Shown piece by piece: positions 4,163 through 18,281 of a stretch of 18,281 bases of DNA. Source of the DNA: Deltaproteobacteria bacterium (lineage in GTDB: Bacteria; JAUYMQ01). How positions within the stretch are numbered: the first letter of the stretch is position 1; every line of letters starts with the position of its first letter. The notes under the pieces were generated by a model. The model worked only from the letters and a program-made list of their open reading frames with translations, was not told where the DNA came from and ran no database searches. The stretch lies in NCBI GenBank assembly GCA_030698575.1, contig JAUYMQ010000268.1, positions 1-18,281 of the forward strand, written 5' to 3'. Made by a program: the position numbers and the translations under genes.

Positions 4163-5395
4163 TCAGACCGGAAGCCGGGGCAGCAGCCGGTCGACCAAGC
4201 CGAGGGTTCGCCGGAGCTTCCCGTCGAAAAGGATGGCCGGGCCGAGGGGCGCCGGAATGAGGCGCACAAGCGCGAGGGCCACGCCCGCCCGCACGGCGCG
4301 ATCGAGGATGTTGCGGAAGGCGATGCCGGCCTTCAGGGGGCCACCGAACTGCGCGCGCCAGCGCGTCTCGTAGACGCGGAGCGCGTCGCGCCCGAACTCG
4401 CCGCGCTTCACGGCGCCGGCGGCGATCTCGCCGGCGAGCTTCCCGCCCGCCATCGCGTAGTAAATCCCGTCGCCCAGCGCCCCCACGTGTCCGGCGAAAT
4501 CTCCGCAGGCAAGCAGGCGATCGGTGAAGGTCCGATCGAGGGCGCCCGACACCGGGATTGATCCGCCCACCTCGAGCGTCATGCGCGCGCCGCGGAGTGA
4601 GGGCTGCGTCGCCGCGACCCGCTCGAACTCCCGCCGCAGGTTGATCCCGAGTCCCGGCCGGTTCAGGTAGCCGAGACCGACGTTCGCTTTCGTCGCCGTG
4701 TAGGGGAAGATCCAGAAGTAGTTCAGCGTGCCGAAGCCGTCGAGCAGATCGATGCGCCAGGTGAGATCGGGCAGGTCGCACCCCTCATAGCGCCCGCCGT
4801 AAGCGACAACCATTTCGTGTCTGCGTGACGTCATGCCAAGCTTCCGCGGTAGCTTGTCGTCCGGCCCCTTCGCCAGGATCGCCATGCGCGCGCGGATGGT
4901 CCCGTCAGACGTCTTTACAAAGACCGCCTCGGGCGTCTCGGTCACGTCGAGGAGTCGCGTGTCAAGGCGCAACTGTGGCAAGACGGGCTCGGCCAGTGCG
5001 CGCTCGAACGCCGGGCGATTCAGCTCGAAAGTGTCGATGGAGAAGCGCTTTTGGAGGGCGCCGTAGACGAACACCTGGCGCCGGGAGAGCGTGCCGTACT
5101 CATGCAGATCGAAGTCGAGGCCGAGCCCCTCGATCTCGTGCAGCAGGACGCCCTCTCCGCAGGCAAGCGGCAGGCCTATGCAGCTCTTCTTGTCGATGAC
5201 GGCGAAGTCCACGCCGCGCTCTCTGAGCGCGCGCGCCGCCATGAGGCCGGCCGGGCCGGCGCCGATCACAACCACGTCGACGCGATCAGCGAGCGGCGCG
5301 CCGGGCTTCGCGTCATTCTTGTCGGCTGGCTTGTCGGCTGGCTTGTCGGCTGGCTTGTCGGCTGGCGTATCGCCAGGCGTATCGGTTGGGGGCAT
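4163..5395 (-). CDS. Geranylgeranyl reductase family FAD-dependent oxidoreductase
   Basis: A 410-aa flavoprotein. After a low-complexity N-terminal tail come the Rossmann dinucleotide-binding motif VVVIGAGPAG (about 41-50), the family signature GLPLACGEGV (about 74-83; compare G-x-P-x-x-CGEG in geranylgeranyl reductases), the YxWxFP motif YFWIFP (about 226-231) followed by ANVGLGYL, and the second FAD motif CGDFAGHVGALGDGI (about 297-311). Relatives hydrogenate geranylgeranyl chains of chlorophyll precursors, archaeal lipids or menaquinone (ChlP, GGR, MenJ). The substrate here is not known. The divergent neighbour is a phytol/dolichol kinase-like fusion, and UbiB lies farther on, favouring a role in prenyl-chain saturation. 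ATG 5395 directly follows a GTG at 5398; no strong ribosome site is visible. Residues about 10-26 are (ADKP)n repeats, absent from typical family members, probably a disordered linker. The C-terminal 60 residues contain an amphipathic, possibly membrane-associated segment. Confidence 0.85.
   Translation of the reverse strand: MPPTDTPGDTPADKPADKPADKPADKNDAKPGAPLADRVDVVVIGAGPAGLMAARALRERGVDFAVIDKKSCIGLPLACGEGVLLHEIEGLGLDFDLHEYGTLSRRQVFVYGALQKRFSIDTFELNRPAFERALAEPVLPQLRLDTRLLDVTETPEAVFVKTSDGTIRARMAILAKGPDDKLPRKLGMTSRRHEMVVAYGGRYEGCDLPDLTWRIDLLDGFGTLNYFWIFPYTATKANVGLGYLNRPGLGINLRREFERVAATQPSLRGARMTLEVGGSIPVSGALDRTFTDRLLACGDFAGHVGALGDGIYYAMAGGKLAGEIAAGAVKRGEFGRDALRVYETRWRAQFGGPLKAGIAFRNILDRAVRAGVALALVRLIPAPLGPAILFDGKLRRTLGLVDRLLPRLPV
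5319..5366. repeat. 12-bp tandem repeat, four perfect copies, coding (ADKP)4
   Basis: The unit ttgtcggctggc occurs four times without mismatch and is followed by degenerate units to about 5390. On the minus strand it codes Ala-Asp-Lys-Pro in the N-terminal tail of the flavoprotein. Perfect identity suggests recent slippage. The unit is a multiple of three, so copy-number change would alter tail length without frameshift. Confidence 0.9.
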
Positions 5396-5545
5396 CACGC
5401 GGTATCCGGAAGGTCAGGGATGTCGTGAGGCGCTTCAGTGACGGCGCCGCCACAGCTTGGGGCACCGCGTCATGCCTGTCAAACCCGGGCCCGGATCGCG
5501 CGCGCCGCGCAGCGCCTGAGCCGCGCCGGCCGGAGGCGGGCGGCC

Positions 5546-11699: not shown

Positions 11700-12530
11700 A
11701 TGACCGCGCGAAAGGGGCGTCAGCCGGTCGAACTCGAGAGGGCGCGCAGGAGCGTGAAGGCGCGAATCATGGATGCGTCTTCCCTCTTTCTGGCCCTCGA
11801 TTACGACGGAACCCTCGTCCCCATCGTCGCGCGTCCGGAGATGGCCCGTCCGACGGAGGCGACCATCGCGATCCTCGAGTCGCTCTCGCAGACGCCGGGA
11901 ATCAAACTGGCGATCGTGTCCGGGCGCAGCCTGGAGGTCCTCCGGCGATTTCTTCCCATCCCCAATCTGATCCTCTCCGGCCTTCACGGGCTCGAGATCT
12001 GGCCCCAGGTGAACCGGGTCGCCTCCCGGACGGACGTTCACGCCGTGCGCGTTGATCTCGACCGGCTGCTCCTCGCGCTTCAGGAGAAGGTCGGCGGCGG
12101 AAATTCTCCGCGCATCGAGGACAAGCGACACGCACTGGCGTTTCACTTTCGTGGCGAGAAGCCGACCGTGGCGGCGCGAATGCGAAAAGTTGTGCACGAG
12201 GCTTTCGAGGAGATCAAGGAGGGCGCGCGGATAAAGCTCGTTCCGGGGAAGCAGGTGCTCGAGGCGCGAGCCGAGAACGTGGACAAGGGGGAATCGACGC
12301 GGTCGATGTGGGAACAGCTGGCGCCCTCTTCGCTCCCGATCGTCCTTGGCGACGACGTCACCGACGAGGATCTGTTCGGCGCTTTCTCGGACGTCGGGAT
12401 CACCGTTCGCGTGGGAAAGGCGGCGCGGAAATCCCAGGCGAGATACTTCCTGAAGAGTCCTGCCGACGTGATCACCTGGCTCGGCGAGATCCAGGCGATA
12501 TGGCGCGAGGCGGGGAAAGCGGGGAACTAG
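11700..12530 (+). CDS. otsB: Trehalose-6-phosphate phosphatase
   Basis: A 276-aa HAD-superfamily phosphatase that hydrolyses trehalose-6-phosphate to trehalose, completing the OtsAB pathway. Motif I is LDYDGTLVP (33-41, nucleophile Asp34, acid/base Asp36), motif II VSGRS (73-77), with SGLHGLE in the cap region, VDKGES (194-199) as the motif III lysine region, and motif IV GDDVTDEDLF (217-226). Length is normal. ATG 11700 begins 4 bp after the otsA stop, with GGAGG 11 nt upstream inside otsA, so translation is probably coupled. The TAG stop (12528-12530) is part of CTAG, which is simultaneously the stop of the convergent ccmD, leaving no room for a terminator between the two operons. Confidence 0.93.
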   Translation: MTARKGRQPVELERARRSVKARIMDASSLFLALDYDGTLVPIVARPEMARPTEATIAILESLSQTPGIKLAIVSGRSLEVLRRFLPIPNLILSGLHGLEIWPQVNRVASRTDVHAVRVDLDRLLLALQEKVGGGNSPRIEDKRHALAFHFRGEKPTVAARMRKVVHEAFEEIKEGARIKLVPGKQVLEARAENVDKGESTRSMWEQLAPSSLPIVLGDDVTDEDLFGAFSDVGITVRVGKAARKSQARYFLKSPADVITWLGEIQAIWREAGKAGN

Positions 12531-12670
12531 CGGGCGCGCAGCTCGGCGGCCAGGCGCTCCAGCTCCTGCGCAACCCGGCGGCTGCGCGTGATGAGACTCG
12601 CCGAGTAAGCCGTTACCAGGACACCCACCAGCAGGTAAGCCCAGATCAGATAGCCGAAGTTTTCTTTCAT
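12527..12670 (-). CDS. ccmD: CcmD, small membrane protein of the haem exporter
   Basis: A 47-aa gene, too short for most ORF cut-offs. The product starts MKENFGYLIWAYLLVGV, has one transmembrane helix (about 6-27, including Y-L-I-W-A-Y), then a basic, charged helix (TRSRRVAQELERLAAELRAR), the classic CcmD layout. CcmD releases holo-CcmE from the CcmABC complex in the inner membrane. GAGG stands 7 nt before the ATG. It follows ccmA, ccmB and ccmC in the canonical order but is separated from ccmC by 140 bp filled with a palindromic repeat element. Its stop codon overlaps that of otsB on the opposite strand. Confidence 0.88.
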   Translation of the reverse strand: MKENFGYLIWAYLLVGVLVTAYSASLITRSRRVAQELERLAAELRAR

Positions 12671-12687
12671 CGATTTCCCTCGGAGGA

Positions 12688-12805
12688 GGTCAGACCCAAG
12701 ATGGGGTCAGACCCTGTTTTGATTCCCGCCGTAGAGGGCATGAGCCTGGGGTCTGACCCCAGATCTCGATGCAGCAGCCTGCCAACCCGGAGCGGGTCTG
12801 ACCCC
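12688..12805. repeat. REP/MITE-like palindromic element between ccmC and ccmD
   Basis: Four copies of a near-palindromic core: GGTCAGACCC (12688-12697), GGGGTCAGACCC (12703-12714), then in the opposite sense GGGGTCTGACCCC (12748-12760) and GGGTCTGACCCC (12794-12805). The two-plus-two inverted arrangement over 118 bp resembles a bacterial interspersed mosaic (BIME-like) element of the kind moved by RAYT (REP-associated tyrosine transposase) proteins. It begins 5 bp after the ccmC stop (12811) and almost fills the 140-bp gap. No transposase is in the window. Confidence 0.75.
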
Positions 12806-12810
12806 AGAGC

Positions 12811-13569
12811 TTATTGCCGTGACTCACGCAAGCGGCCGCGCAGCGCCGTGGCCAGATCTCTGAGCCTTTCCAGCTCCGCCCGCACGGCGATGAAGCTCAC
12901 TGCCAGCAGCGTGAAGGCGGCGAGGGTGACGAGCAGCGTCTGCAGCATTTCCGGCGGAAGCTGCGGGCCCTCGGGATTCATGACGACCGGATCGGGGTGG
13001 AGGGTGCGCCACCAGCGCACCGAGAGGTGCACCAGCGGGATGTCGAGGAACCCCACGATCCCCACCACCGCCGCGAACCGCGCGCCGCGCTCTCCCTCGC
13101 CGACGAAGGGCCGCAGCAGCAGGTAGCCCAGGAAGATGAGCCACAGGACGAGCGTCGAGGTGAGGCGCGCGTCCCAGGTCCACCAGGCGCCCCAGATGGG
13201 CTTTCCCCAGAACGGGCCCGAGAGCAGGACCGCGGTGCAGAAGATGACTCCCACCTCCGCTCCCGCCAGCGCCAGCAGATCCCATGCCCGATCGCGCTTC
13301 AGCAGATAGAGGATGCTCGAGATGAAGCAGACGAAGAAGGCCAGGTAGCTCGACCAGGCGCTCGAAACGTGCACGTAGAAGATCTTCTGAACGATCCCCT
13401 GCGTCTTCTCCTCGGGCGCGTAGTTGAAGATCATCACCATGGCACCCATGAGCGCGATGCCGGCCAGGGGAAGGGTCACGTTTCTCACGCGCCGGAGGAG
13501 GCGATCCATCCGATCCTGCAGGGTGGATCCTCCCCGGGGAAACTCGTGTTCGGCCGTCATGCCCGCCAT
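12811..13569 (-). CDS. ccmC: Haem exporter permease CcmC
   Basis: A 252-aa polytopic membrane protein, about six transmembrane helices. The periplasmic tryptophan-rich WWD domain is WGAWWTWDARLTS (126-138), and the two haem-ligand histidines are in YVHVSSAW (His67) and VHLSVRWW (His181). CcmC handles haem and loads it onto CcmE in system I cytochrome c maturation. The ATG at 13569 comes directly after the ccmB stop (TGA then ATG), with GGAGG 5 nt upstream inside ccmB, so this start is well supported. The short hydrophilic C-terminus is typical. The stop is followed after 5 bp by the palindromic element. Confidence 0.95.
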   Translation of the reverse strand: MAGMTAEHEFPRGGSTLQDRMDRLLRRVRNVTLPLAGIALMGAMVMIFNYAPEEKTQGIVQKIFYVHVSSAWSSYLAFFVCFISSILYLLKRDRAWDLLALAGAEVGVIFCTAVLLSGPFWGKPIWGAWWTWDARLTSTLVLWLIFLGYLLLRPFVGEGERGARFAAVVGIVGFLDIPLVHLSVRWWRTLHPDPVVMNPEGPQLPPEMLQTLLVTLAAFTLLAVSFIAVRAELERLRDLATALRGRLRESRQ

Positions 13570-14277
13570 TCATTCCTCCAGAACGTGTTGGAATAGAAAA
13601 GTCCCGGCCACCACGAACAGTGCATCACAGAGGACCAGCATCCCGACCCAGGGCAGAACGCTCTCCAGATCCAGTCCCTCCAGCGCCGCCTGGGTGAGGC
13701 GCACCGAGGCTATCAGGACGGGGACGCACGCGGGAAGGAGCAGCAGCGGAAGCATCACCTCGCGGATGCGGGTCTGCGCCGCCATGGCGGCGAAGAGCGT
13801 TCCCGCCGCCACGAAGCCAAAGCTTCCCAGCGCGAGCGGAAGCAGCATCGTGGGGAAGGCGCGCGCGAGGGGAAAGTTGAAGAGCAGGGCGAACAGGGGG
13901 AGCACCGCCGCCTCCGTCACCGCCAGGAATATCAGATTGGCGATAACTTTTCCGAGATAGATGGCCCCCGGATCGGCCGGAGAGAGGAACAGCGCATCGA
14001 GACAACCCTCCTCCTTCTCCGTCACGAACGTCCGGTTCAGCCCGAGCATGCCCGCAAAAACGAAAGCCACCCAGATAAAGCCCGAGGCCATCCGCTCCAC
14101 CGCCCCCTGGCCGGGCTCGAACGAGAAATTGAAGGTAACGAGCACAAGGGCCGCGAAGACCACCGTGGCGGAGAAGACCTCGCGCGTGCGCCACTCGAGG
14201 CGCAGATCCTTCCGCACCACGGCGAGCGTCACGGCTCCGAAGGAGGCGCCGGTGCAAGAGATCTTTGCGGCGCTCAT
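13570..14277 (-). CDS. ccmB: Haem exporter permease CcmB
   Basis: A 235-aa membrane subunit of the CcmABCD ABC-type complex, with six hydrophobic segments. Family-typical stretches include VVRKDLRLEWRTRE (20-33) at the cytoplasmic N-terminus, FVTEKEEGCLDALFLSP (83-99) and RIREVMLPLLLLP. The length matches CcmB (about 220-235). ATG 14277 overlaps the ccmA stop by 4 bp (ATGA), indicating translational coupling. It works with CcmA to release the CcmC-CcmE haem intermediate, rather than acting as a simple haem pump. Confidence 0.94.
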   Translation of the reverse strand: MSAAKISCTGASFGAVTLAVVRKDLRLEWRTREVFSATVVFAALVLVTFNFSFEPGQGAVERMASGFIWVAFVFAGMLGLNRTFVTEKEEGCLDALFLSPADPGAIYLGKVIANLIFLAVTEAAVLPLFALLFNFPLARAFPTMLLPLALGSFGFVAAGTLFAAMAAQTRIREVMLPLLLLPACVPVLIASVRLTQAALEGLDLESVLPWVGMLVLCDALFVVAGTFLFQHVLEE

Positions 14278-15005
14278 CGCCGGCTCCCCACGAGCGCAGC
14301 GTAGCGCGCCTTGAAACCGTCGGCATCGCCGCCGGGCGCGTCCTCTTCGAGGGAGATGCGTCCTTCAGTCAGCACGGCCATTCGGTCCGCCGCCCTCAAT
14401 CCCACGTCGATCTGATGGGTCGTCATGACGAGTGTGCGGGATCCATCGTGCAGCGAAGCCAGCAGATCGACGAAGAGCCCCACCGCCCGGTCGTCCAGCC
14501 CGGAGGTGGGCTCGTCCAGAAGGAGCACCTCGGGATCGTGAAGCAGCGATCGCGCGATGGAGAGGCGTTGCGTCATTCCGTGGGAGAGCGTCCGCACCGG
14601 ATCCCCCCGGCGCTCGAGGAGCTCCACGCCGGCCAGCACCTCCTCGATGCGCGCATCGAGGGCGGGAAGCCCATAGAGCGTCCCGAAGAACCTGAGATTC
14701 TCTTCCGCCGATAGATCGCGGTACAGCTGCGCCTCGTGCGAGACGAGCCCGATGCGCGCCCTCATCGCCGGTTCCGGGCGCCCCGGCTTTCCACCCAGCA
14801 GGCGGACCGTGCCTCCTGACGGGCGCGCCAGCCCGGCGAGGATCTTGAGGAGCGTCGTCTTCCCCGCGCCGTTCGGACCGAGCAGCGCGAGAAAGCTTCC
14901 TTGCGGAACGCGTAGTTCAACGTTGCGCAGGACCACGTGCGGGCCGAAGCTCTTCGAGATGCCGGTGGCCTCGAGGGCGGGCCACACGGCGCTGGCCACA
15001 CTCAA
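14274..15005 (-). CDS. ccmA: Haem exporter ATP-binding subunit CcmA
   Basis: A 243-aa ABC ATPase. Walker A is GPNGAGKTT (43-51), the signature loop LSHGMTQRLSIAR (140-152), Walker B LLLDEPTSGLD (161-171), and the H-loop MTTHQ. The LSHGM signature and gene order identify CcmA among ABC ATPases. The start is TTG 15005, overlapping the previous stop (TTGA) with GGGAG 6 nt upstream; a GTG at 14999 is an alternative. The product is cytoplasmic and membrane-associated with CcmB. Confidence 0.93.
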   Translation of the reverse strand: MSVASAVWPALEATGISKSFGPHVVLRNVELRVPQGSFLALLGPNGAGKTTLLKILAGLARPSGGTVRLLGGKPGRPEPAMRARIGLVSHEAQLYRDLSAEENLRFFGTLYGLPALDARIEEVLAGVELLERRGDPVRTLSHGMTQRLSIARSLLHDPEVLLLDEPTSGLDDRAVGLFVDLLASLHDGSRTLVMTTHQIDVGLRAADRMAVLTEGRISLEEDAPGGDADGFKARYAALVGSRR

Positions 15006-15679
15006 TCGCTACTCCCGGCTCTTGGCGACGCAGAGGTCGAATCCCCGGCGGGCAGGTCCGAGCTCGAAAGTTTCTCCCTCGCCTTCGCTGCCTTTTTCCC
15101 TTCGGGGTCCAGCGCCAGGTACTGCCCATAGAACTTCCGCGCCCTGTCGTAGCGTCCAGCCTCTTCCTCGAGAAGGGCGAGGTTGTAGGCGGCCGCCGGA
15201 TGCGGCGTGGCGCCGGTGAGGGCTACGAGGAATGCGGCGCGGGCCGCGGTGTCCTCGCCCAGGGCCGCTAGCGCGATCCCGAGATTGACCTGCGCGGGAA
15301 GGTTGGCAGGCTCGATGGCGACGACGCGCCGGTAGAGATCCTTCGCCGTCGAGAAGCTGCCCGCATCGGAGGCTGCATGACCGCGCGCCAGGAGCGACTC
15401 CACGTTCTCGTCCTCCTGCGTTGTTCCGGAGGGAAGTGCGTCGGGCTCGAAGCTCCGCGTCGGTATCAGCCCCCGTCCCAGCATCAGCCCGGCCAGGAGC
15501 CCGAGGCCCCAGGCGATGAGTAGAAGTCGTATGCCCGCGGGAGCGCGCCGGCTCGTAACCTCTTCCTTTGCGGACCCGCCCGCTTTTTCGTCGATGGTCG
15601 TGCCGCACTTGCCGCAGAAACGCACGCCCATCGGCATCCCGGCACCGCAGGCGTGGCAGACCACACCAAAGGGGCTCAT
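15002..15679 (-). CDS. Zinc-ribbon, membrane-anchored TPR protein of the ccm operon
   Basis: A 225-aa protein. An N-terminal zinc ribbon (Cys8-x2-Cys11, Cys22-x2-Cys25, in FCGKCGTT) is followed by one transmembrane helix (about 49-71) and three TPR-like units (about 90-205: ARGHAASDAGSFSTAKDLYRR, NLGIALAALGEDTAARAAFL, YNLALLEEEAGRYDRARKFY). TPR proteins such as CcmI or NrfG hold apocytochromes for the haem ligation complex, so this is probably the TPR half of a split CcmI, with the ribbon cytoplasmic and the TPR periplasmic (inferred). GGAGG stands 6 nt before the ATG, and a palindromic element starts 7 bp farther upstream. The stop overlaps the ccmA start. Confidence 0.75.
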   Translation of the reverse strand: MSPFGVVCHACGAGMPMGVRFCGKCGTTIDEKAGGSAKEEVTSRRAPAGIRLLLIAWGLGLLAGLMLGRGLIPTRSFEPDALPSGTTQEDENVESLLARGHAASDAGSFSTAKDLYRRVVAIEPANLPAQVNLGIALAALGEDTAARAAFLVALTGATPHPAAAYNLALLEEEAGRYDRARKFYGQYLALDPEGKKAAKAREKLSSSDLPAGDSTSASPRAGSSD

Positions 15680-15697
15680 CGCGTGCCTCCAGCGGAT

Positions 15698-15829
15698 GGG
15701 GTCAGGCTTGACTTATTGACTTGTTGAGCGTTGCGACATCTCATAACTACCAGGAAGATCAATGGTTCGAGTGAAATTCGACGGTCGGGTTCAACAAGTT
15801 AAATAAGTCAATAAGTCAAGCCTGACCCC
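15698..15829. mobile_element. 132-bp MITE-like element with 25-bp perfect terminal inverted repeats
   Basis: The terminal arms 15698-15722 and 15805-15829 are perfect inverted copies over 25 bp beginning GGGGTCAGGCTTGACTTATT. A further 9-bp pair (ACTTGTTGA 15719-15727, TCAACAAGT 15791-15799) extends the stem. The right arm carries a short extra segment with repeated AATAAGTC. The centre is AT-richer than its surroundings and has no ORF. It is a non-autonomous palindromic element, probably mobilised in trans by a REP-type or other transposase not present here. It lies 2 bp after the stop of the upstream gene and 7 bp before the ribosome site of the next. Confidence 0.85.
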
Positions 15830-15831
15830 GG

Positions 15832-17187
15832 TTACGAGGCGAGCCGGCGCCCGCGGCTGATTACCCAGCCGAGGCCGAGGCCCGTCGTCAGCAGCCCGCC
15901 CGCGATCCATCCCATCTGGCGCGCGGAGAAGCCAATCGCCTGGAGCCCGCCCGCGATCCGGGCCTCCAGGGGCGCTTCCTTGGCGAAGGGGCCGCCCGCC
16001 ATGACCAGGAATTTGCGGCCGTCGATGTTCACGGTTCGCTGCTCGGGGAGGGCCTTCGCGCTCACCTCCAGGCCCTGATCGAGGGGAACGGCCACGCTGA
16101 ATGACCCGGTTGGGAAGGAGAGGCGCCGATCGAGCGGCGTTCCCCAGATCGTGCGAGGGAGATTGTAGCCCAGCATGAACTGCGTCGTCCCCGGGGGTAC
16201 GGGGAAGGCAAGGTGAAACCCGTTCTCGGCGGGATTGAAGATGCGTCGCGTGAGCCAATCCGGCGTGTTGAGCTCGCGATACCCGGGGGGCAGTGTAAGG
16301 AAGAAGCCGTGCCCGGTGGGGGAGGAAGGCTGGAGCTTCCCCAGGAAGGTGCGGCTGCCGGTGTTCTCGAGAATGACGATCTCGGTGGCGTTGATCGCCT
16401 CGGAGCTCCCTTGAAGGATGAGGTGATTGCTCCGGATGCTGACGTCGTCGTCGGAGGTCGTGGTCTCGTAGACGGAGAGATCCAACGTCGCGCGAGGTGC
16501 CTCGTCAGTGACCCGGATACCCCGCTGCGCATAAGGGACGTCGCGGTAGAAGGCCCCCAGGGTGTATTCCCCCAGTGCGACGTCCTCGAAGCGAAAACGC
16601 CCCTCTCGGCCCGACTTCGTTTCGGCGGTCGGCGTATCCGACCCTCCCTGGAGCAAGATCACTTTGACCCCGACCACCGCTTCCTGGGTCGTTCCATTGA
16701 CGATCCTTCCGGCGATCTCGCCGGCACGGGCCGGGGAGGTGTGCAACAGGCCCGAACTCACGAGAACGATCAGGAGGGTCAGCACGGCGGTCTGCGTGTG
16801 TCCGCAACTCGTGCAAAAGCGATGCGCCTTGTCGAGAGAACGCCCGCAGCTGGAGCATTTTCGGGCCTGGTCCTTTTCGGCGGTGTCAGCGTCGAGGCCC
16901 GCGGAGGGAGCAGCCGCCCGGAGCCGGTCGATTTCCTGCATGAGTGCCATGGCGTGCGCCCGGTAACGCGCCATGAAGCGCCCGTAGTCCTCGTCCGAAA
17001 CCACGCCCGTCTTATGGTCGAACTCGAGCTCCGTGATAGCGAGCAACACGCCTTCCTTCTCACGCAGGAGGGCGTCGGCGGGGAGCTGTGACGTTTCGCC
17101 TGGCCATGCCTGCCGCCGGGTCAGCGGTCGGAGCACGAAGTAGAGTGCTAGCAGGGCCAGCAGGCCGGCGAGAATCTGGGCTCCCAT
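15832..17187 (-). CDS. CcmI-like N-terminus fused to a zinc ribbon and a carboxypeptidase-regulatory-like domain
   Basis: A 451-aa mosaic membrane protein. Residues 3-21 form a membrane helix. Residues 40-90 (LLREKEGVLLAITELEFDHKT...SDEDYGRFMARY) match the cytoplasmic linker of CcmI-type proteins. C-x2-C...C-x2-C (111, 114, 125, 128) is a zinc ribbon. A second hydrophobic segment (about 134-150) ending in ARA resembles an internal signal or membrane pass. Next comes a beta-rich domain (about 157-240; IAGRIVNGTTQEAVVGVKVIL, FEDVALGEYTLGAF) of the carboxypeptidase-regulatory-like (CarboxypepD_reg) kind, then an unrecognised beta-rich region and a C-terminal membrane helix (about 424-443). The TPR part of CcmI is missing and is probably supplied by the next gene. 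ATG 17187 overlaps the upstream stop (TGATG). Its role in the haem ligation module is inferred from operon position. Confidence 0.7.
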   Translation of the reverse strand: MGAQILAGLLALLALYFVLRPLTRRQAWPGETSQLPADALLREKEGVLLAITELEFDHKTGVVSDEDYGRFMARYRAHAMALMQEIDRLRAAAPSAGLDADTAEKDQARKCSSCGRSLDKAHRFCTSCGHTQTAVLTLLIVLVSSGLLHTSPARAGEIAGRIVNGTTQEAVVGVKVILLQGGSDTPTAETKSGREGRFRFEDVALGEYTLGAFYRDVPYAQRGIRVTDEAPRATLDLSVYETTTSDDDVSIRSNHLILQGSSEAINATEIVILENTGSRTFLGKLQPSSPTGHGFFLTLPPGYRELNTPDWLTRRIFNPAENGFHLAFPVPPGTTQFMLGYNLPRTIWGTPLDRRLSFPTGSFSVAVPLDQGLEVSAKALPEQRTVNIDGRKFLVMAGGPFAKEAPLEARIAGGLQAIGFSARQMGWIAGGLLTTGLGLGWVISRGRRLAS

Positions 17188-17735
17188 CACCGTTCGAACC
17201 GCGATAGTTCTTCATCCAGCCGCCGCTCGTAAGCGGAAGAGACGGCCGCACCGTTCGGGGAAGGCTCCGGGGATTCCGGGGCCGCGGATTCTTTTCCTCG
17301 GGCAGGCGACACGAACCGGCGCGCGACCCGCACCACCCACCATCCTCCCAGCGCAAGGGCGAGGAAGGGTGCAATCCAGGACAGGCGATCGAGCCAGTTG
17401 GAGGTGCCGGGGCTCGCGAGCACGCGTATGCCGTAACGCTTGACCAGGGCCTCCAGGATCTCCGTCTTGGTCATGCCCGCGGCAATCATGCTATCGAGCT
17501 CCTTGCGCATGTTGTCGGAGAAGCCGCAGACGCAGTTGGCGAGCAGCTTTCCGCAGTTGTCCTCGCAGGGGCAATTGACCCCTGCCTCGATCTCCTTCCG
17601 ATCGACCGGCGCGGCAGCCGCGGCGGGAGCGACCTCCTCGGCGGCGAAGCACGCCGGCCCGGCGGGCACCAGCACGGCGCCCGCCAGGAACAGGGTCACA
17701 AGAAGGATCGCAACATGGAGGTTACGGCGCGTCAT
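17187..17735 (-). CDS. ccmH: CcmH/CycL/NrfF-like apocytochrome thioreductase with variant Cys motif
   Basis: A 182-aa membrane-anchored periplasmic protein. A signal peptide or anchor (about 8-32) is followed by the CcmH domain (about 50-108; DNMRKELDSMIAAGMTKTEILEALVKRYG, a clear family match), a transmembrane helix (about 117-137) and a charged cytoplasmic tail. The canonical LRCxxC active site is replaced by a cysteine-rich CPC-x3-C-x6-C-x-C (Cys55, 57, 61, 68, 70). CcmH reduces or presents the CxxCH cysteines of apocytochrome c to CcmF. It lies 6 bp after ccmF and its stop overlaps the next gene. Start ATG 17735. Confidence 0.82.
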   Translation of the reverse strand: MTRRNLHVAILLVTLFLAGAVLVPAGPACFAAEEVAPAAAAAPVDRKEIEAGVNCPCEDNCGKLLANCVCGFSDNMRKELDSMIAAGMTKTEILEALVKRYGIRVLASPGTSNWLDRLSWIAPFLALALGGWWVVRVARRFVSPARGKESAAPESPEPSPNGAAVSSAYERRLDEELSRFER

Positions 17736-17741
17736 GGGCCA

Positions 17742-18281
17742 TCACACGTACCTGGGGATGAGCTGCCGCCGCTCACTGGCGTCTGGCCACATGGTGATGA
17801 CCGTGCCCAGGGCAAAAATGAGCCCACCGATCCAGATCCATTGAACGAGCGGGTTCACGTAGACCTTGAAGGTGACCGAGCCGTCGGCCGAGACCGCGGC
17901 CAGGGCCAGGTACAGATCCTCGCGCAGCGAGGACCGGATTGCCACCTCGGTCGTAGGCTGCTGGCTGGCCAGGTAGAAGTTCTTGGCGGGCACCATCACG
18001 CCCGTGAGCCGGGTTCCCTCGAAGACTTCGAAGCGGGCCTTGGCCCATTCGTGATTCGCGTCGCGCCCGGTCTCGACCCCCTGGTAGCGAAGCGTGTAAT
18101 TTCCCACCTCGACCGTCTCGCCCGGGTTGAGTGTGGCTTCCCGCTCGGAGTTGAAGGCCGTCCCCGTGATCCCGACGAAGATCGCGACCATTCCCACGTG
18201 GACCACGTAGCCGCCATAACGCCGCCGATTCTTCCTGACCAGCCGGCTGAGCGCCGTCAAGGTGCTCTCGCCGAACTGCCG
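17742..18281 (-). CDS. ccmF: C-terminal part of cytochrome c haem lyase CcmF (truncated by window)
   Basis: The frame is open to the right edge of the window, reading R-Q-F-G-E-S-T before the TTG at 18260, so the gene starts outside. The visible 179 residues match the CcmF C-terminus: KNRRRYGGYVVHVGMVAIFVG (membrane helix), a periplasmic beta domain with NYTLRYQGV and EVAIRSSLREDLYLAL, and the final helix VNPLVQWIWIGGLIFALGTVI. CcmF ligates haem from CcmE to apocytochromes. It is the most 5' gene visible in this operon; ccmE and the rest of ccmF are presumably just outside. Confidence 0.92.
   Translation of the reverse strand, partial: RQFGESTLTALSRLVRKNRRRYGGYVVHVGMVAIFVGITGTAFNSEREATLNPGETVEVGNYTLRYQGVETGRDANHEWAKARFEVFEGTRLTGVMVPAKNFYLASQQPTTEVAIRSSLREDLYLALAAVSADGSVTFKVYVNPLVQWIWIGGLIFALGTVITMWPDASERRQLIPRYV

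Follow-up and report, generated by a model that had tools for sequence, protein, structure and literature searches.

We have found that the only two long gaps in a cytochrome c maturation (ccm) operon from an uncultured bacterium are occupied by inverted-repeat elements, E1 and E2, which are very probably small non-autonomous elements built from the terminal inverted repeats (TIRs) of two different TIRYT transposons. The operon lies on the minus strand of an 18,281-nt stretch of DNA (the window), in which the gene ends were called. It consists of the C-terminal part of ccmF (17742..18281, cut by the window end), ccmH (17187..17735), a gene for a 452-aa protein at the CcmI position (15832..17190), a gene for a TPR/zinc-ribbon protein (15002..15679), ccmA encoding the ABC ATPase (14274..15005), ccmB (13570..14277), ccmC (Cytochrom_C_asm; 12811..13569) and a ccmD-like 47-aa ORF (12527..12670). 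Five of the seven junctions are at most 6 bp: ccmF/ccmH (+6 bp), ccmH/452-aa gene, TPR gene/ccmA and ccmA/ccmB (−4 bp each) and ccmB/ccmC (0 bp). The other two are +152 bp (452-aa gene/TPR gene, 15680-15831) and +140 bp (ccmC/ccmD, 12671-12810), and they hold E1 (132 bp), downstream of which the TPR gene lies, and E2 (120 bp), respectively. The preliminary description of this DNA had noticed both elements, and had read them as starting 2–5 bp past a stop codon and leaving the next ribosome sites intact; the sequence bears this out, with E1 starting at 2 bp and E2 at 5 bp past the stop and the sites GGAGG and GAGG lying outside the elements. Its label ‘CcmI’ had to be dropped: no Pfam CcmI domain was recognised in the 452-aa protein, which has zinc-ribbon/CarboxypepD_reg domains instead. 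Proteins resembling it are encoded ahead of ccmA in several distant loci. The 47-aa ORF gave no significant Pfam match and is named ccmD because of its position and its single hydrophobic segment. Elsewhere in the window, ORF 4163-5398 contains at least four tandem copies of a 12-bp repeat (CGGCTGGCTTGT) at 5299-5370.

E1 (15698..15829) is a putative TIR dimer, made of two 28-bp inverted arms, 96% complementary, around a unique 76-bp loop. The plus-strand arm (15698..15725) reads GGGGTCAGGCTTGACTTATTGACTTGTTG and agrees at every position over 29 nt with the right TIR of a transposase gene in contig C244 of the same genome; the minus-strand arm (15802..15829) matches this TIR at 30 of 31 nt and is preceded by an AACC foot, the AA of which belongs to the upstream TAA stop. 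E2 (12686..12805) is a nested double pair of GGGGTCAGACCC units in the order ++−−, with a core common to the TIRs of a second transposase gene in contig C110. Its outer plus-strand unit (12686..12697) has one mismatch (GAGGTCAGACCC), the inner plus-strand unit (12703..12714) is an exact GGGGTCAGACCC, and on the minus strand the inner unit (12748..12760) is an exact GGGGTCAGACCCC and the outer one (12794..12805) again an exact GGGGTCAGACCC. In comparison with shuffled sequences the folding z-score of E1 is −8.8 as DNA and −7.5 as RNA, with no shuffle equally good; for E2 the values are −2.6 and −3.2, a signal weaker than that of E1, yet genuine. As RNA of the transcript strand E1 and E2 have predicted hairpins of −62 and −66 kcal/mol, and would form strong hairpins in the mRNA, as had been proposed. 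Of the common core GGGGTCAG reported for the two elements it is true that both contain it, but E1 and E2 belong to different repeat families; the suggestion of one superfamily is supported in the sense that both families have GGGGWSAS ends of the TIRYT type.

Three Y1_Tnp genes, two of them long, are present in the genome of the window (G000), a 4.1-Mb assembly of 653 contigs; by its score, the third gene (C176, 131 aa) is that of an ordinary IS200 transposase. The gene in C244 (L073:260-1204) encodes a 314-aa protein with Y1_Tnp and C-terminal Bac_DnaA_C domains. Its left TIR, at L073:160, reads GGGGCAGG (one base lost) and its right TIR, which ends at 1219 and contains the stop codon of the gene, reads GGGGTCAG. 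The gene in C110 (L074:416-1366) encodes 316 aa with Y1_Tnp and a sigma-r4/HTH tail (Sigma70_r4 or weak HTH_23), and is bracketed by 34-bp TIRs, 91% complementary and centred on GGGGTCAGACCCC. Both proteins show the catalytic motifs NHLH/NHFH and YIHQNP/YIVLNP. A PDB search with the HTH tail matched only DnaA. Each repeat type is thus physically tied to its own putative transposase gene, because the C244 and C110 genes are bracketed by E1-type and GGGGTCAGACCCC-type ends. On this evidence we firmly assign E1 to the C244 family. E2 is placed in the TIRYT class by a 12–13 bp core, the TTAAATAA flanks and the full 34 bp of the C110 TIRs being absent from it; since only the core matches the C110 ends, the exact parent family of E2 is uncertain and may be a sister family. 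The RAYT or other transposase with matching ends that the preliminary description had proposed to search for thus exists in the form of the C244 and C110 Y1 genes; these are, however, TIRYTs resembling TnpA-Y1 subclass 2.1 and not classical RAYTs of GTAG REPs, and with the RAYT NCBIfam model NF047646 their proteins scored 63.8 and 75.9 bits, under the cut-off of 80.

Other copies of both repeats, likewise to be sought according to that description, are found in the same genome, where both types adjoin many unrelated genes. The arms of E1 recur at ∼17–20 sites and gave 34 BLAST matches at ∼17–18 places. The 15-mer GGGGTCAGGCTTGAC with at most one mismatch has 23 sites, versus one for the reversed pattern used as a control, and GGGGTCAGACCC has 29 strand-sites versus none for the control. 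No second copy of the 76-bp loop of E1 was found by BLAST in this genome, and E1 is therefore placed outside any clonal miniature-element family; the loop bears a faint likeness to the subterminal region of the C244 element, which 30 of 2000 shuffles equalled. A spacer common to E2 and a dimer in contig C498 was considered and rejected, as the cores alone carry the alignment. At least two further relatives of these repeat types are present in the assembly. One is a repeat with the sequence GGGGTCAGGTCTAAAATTTGACC, seen as inverted pairs at L060, L066 and L053 (contigs C498, C605 and C266), for which no matching transposase was seen in the assembly; the other is the palindrome GGGGACAGTCCCC, with seven sites versus none for the control (contigs C268, C401, C446, C498, C581 and C600; L154-L157), probably a fourth GGGGWSAS family. 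Searching the literature for these repeats by sequence returned only unrelated papers.

When 386 genomes were searched with a 20-mer of the E1 TIR, matches outside the window's own genome were limited to two genomes, G225 and G150. G225 comes from another family; its Y1_Tnp genes are accompanied by close variants of the E1 TIR, and at least one such gene has them on either side. This supports the pairing of repeat and candidate transposase independently. No TIRYT frame was seen adjoining the match in G150. A stretch of 8 kb in contig C13 of G225 holds four Y1_Tnp genes or gene fragments (L145, L147, L149 and L151); at least two of them have GGGGTCAGGC-type ends, and the frames are short and look interrupted.

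Could the two elements be, whatever their origin, fixed regulatory RNA structures that determine in what ratio CcmF/H, CcmABC and CcmD are made? The great stability of the predicted hairpins on the transcript strand speaks for it, as does the position of the elements exactly between modules of the operon with the ribosome sites intact. Still, we regard this reading as unlikely, given that the same sequences stand beside many unrelated genes of the genome, that an Rfam search with the elements gave no match and that neither of them contains a terminator-like site or T-run. Conservation at the same sites in distant relatives, named in the preliminary description as the sign of a fixed regulatory structure, was not observed: an inverted GGGGTCAG pair is found at the matching junctions in 0 of 41 distant ccm loci, and where a ccmD-like ORF was found after ccmC, most of the gaps between the two measure −8 to +15 bp and the exceptions ∼90–100 bp. 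This comparison was one of gap length and repeat absence, among genomes no closer than ‘same domain’ (ccmB identity of 37–48%); it fits an insertion in the lineage of the window, the operons being too distant for an empty site at the DNA level. Insertion of elements explains the two ccm gaps with no special regulation invoked. That the structures arose by chance as inverted repeats, or act as ordinary terminators, is a reading to which the short cores and the intergenic placement might lend themselves, but it deserves practically no credence in view of the copy numbers relative to the reversed-pattern controls, the folding relative to shuffles and the lack of a T-run; chance inverted repeats are already refuted by the genomic copies.

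A different matter is whether a TIRYT actively targets stop codons, or selection spares gene ends. To locate the stops we used a simple gene caller based on codon usage, which reproduces the genes of the window. Considering the upstream gene on the same strand, a stop lies within −12..+20 of the core in seven of 12 E1-family and seven of 15 E2-family arms, versus a background of 0.13 estimated from intergenic-like positions, which ignores the stops built into the repeat. In addition, AACC precedes GGGG in eight of 23 arms, with near variants in others, and may be a part of the element or of the target; the TAA stop of the 452-aa gene, adjoining E1, is composed of a T and the AA of this foot. 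Both observations would agree with active targeting. However, the upstream stops occur at fixed offsets relative to GGGG (−2 or +14 for E1-type arms; −1, −6 or +22 for E2-type arms), and the majority coincide with stops that the repeat itself contains, so that any insertion near a 3′ end will automatically bring a stop next to the core. Thus, five unrelated genes (L003, L005, L013, L015 and L018 in contigs C614, C326, C14, C349 and C480) end in ...RGQA*, where RGQA and the TGA are encoded by the E1-family repeat, and in two genes the other family encodes the ending GSDPF(I/N)*. In several of the tail-bearing genes a Pfam domain (PAP2, Abhydrolase_1 or pantoate ligase) is almost complete where the tail begins, hence these insertions sit at natural gene ends. 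Built-in stops weaken the case for active targeting, which we consider possible but doubtful. The preference for post-stop sites that had been described is accordingly real as adjacency; it is at least partly self-made by repeat ends that carry stops and often supply that of the gene, and need not reflect a choice of target.

The origin from TIRYT transposons that we favour would proceed as follows. A TIRYT transposon of this kind encodes a tyrosine transposase of the IS200-like Y1/HuH type, ending in an HTH domain, and is bounded by inverted repeats of the GGGGWSAS type. The transposase would nick the hairpin-forming TIRs and move them as single strands, processing them as in IS200/IS605 and TnpA-REP systems, and single TIRs or dimers could be left behind. 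Copies would persist at the 3′ ends of genes, the least harmful sites, where the stop codons of the TIR would close the upstream frame while the next ribosome site is kept. Two such insertions would have been tolerated in the ccm operon, giving rise to its only two long gaps. By analogy with intercistronic REPs, the hairpins may stabilise the upstream mRNA. Should E1 and E2 alter mRNA stability or the differential expression of the ccm modules, as in the uncoupling of modules suggested by the preliminary description, this would be an incidental consequence of the hairpins being transcribed. One may go further and imagine TIRYT ends as portable gene terminators, each supplying a C-terminal tail, stops in multiple frames and an mRNA hairpin, placed at gene ends by the transposase or by selection at almost no harm, with two of them kept in the ccm operon for hairpins that adjust module expression; we think this quite improbable.

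In this uncultured bacterium we thus have a clear case of TIRYT repeat families each going with a transposase of its own, of interest since such repeats have, in the literature searched, been little studied since 2013. The same C-terminal tail and stop given to unrelated genes is a direct footprint of insertion. As REP-like sequences were not found near genes of TnpA-Y1 subclass 2.1 in a survey of 2018 (PMC6006769), these families offer usable material for tests on members of that subclass.

Di Nocera et al. (2013) gave the name TIRYT to Y1 transposases bounded by inverted repeats, described the GGGGWSAS motif and noted that such repeats are also scattered singly, as dimers or in groups (PMC3733652); most TIRYTs were later placed in TnpA-Y1 subclass 2.1, where the tails are of the Bac_DnaA_C or HTH type (PMC6006769). 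The C244 and C110 genes and their repeats appear to fit this TIRYT/TIRtron class: they show Y1_Tnp with HuH and Y---NP motifs, a C-terminal HTH, a gene bounded by GGGGWSAS repeats and dispersed TIRs. REP/REPIN/BIME sequences with their RAYTs (TnpA-REP) are likewise small palindromes in inverted pairs, intergenic and near the 3′ ends of genes. Unlike them, the present repeats have a GGGG(T/A)CAG head, copies in tens and loops that vary between copies; the 5′ GT[AG]G foot of a canonical REP (GTAG/GTGG) is absent, the E1 family having most often AACC, and the E2 family mostly ..AT or ..GT, before GGGG. Since GTAG REP ends have already been reported to supply stop codons (PMC3733652), stop donation by TIRYT repeats is a counterpart of a known effect. 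The QMITE1/2 elements of Coxiella (PMC5896051) are also non-autonomous inverted repeats that overlap gene C-termini, one of them supplying C-terminal residues, but they are not tied to a TIRYT, and in our case it is the arms, not the loops, that are common to the copies. The closest likeness is to the TIRYT/TIRtrons themselves (PMC3733652, PMC6006769), which share the Y1/HuH core, the HTH/Bac_DnaA_C tail and the GGGG-headed TIRs, which lie scattered singly, in dimers or in groups, with a repeat of its own for each transposase. Distinct from those described so far are the host, an unplaced uncultured bacterium, the presence of at least two TIR families in one operon and the C-terminal tails (-RGQA*) encoded by the TIRs.
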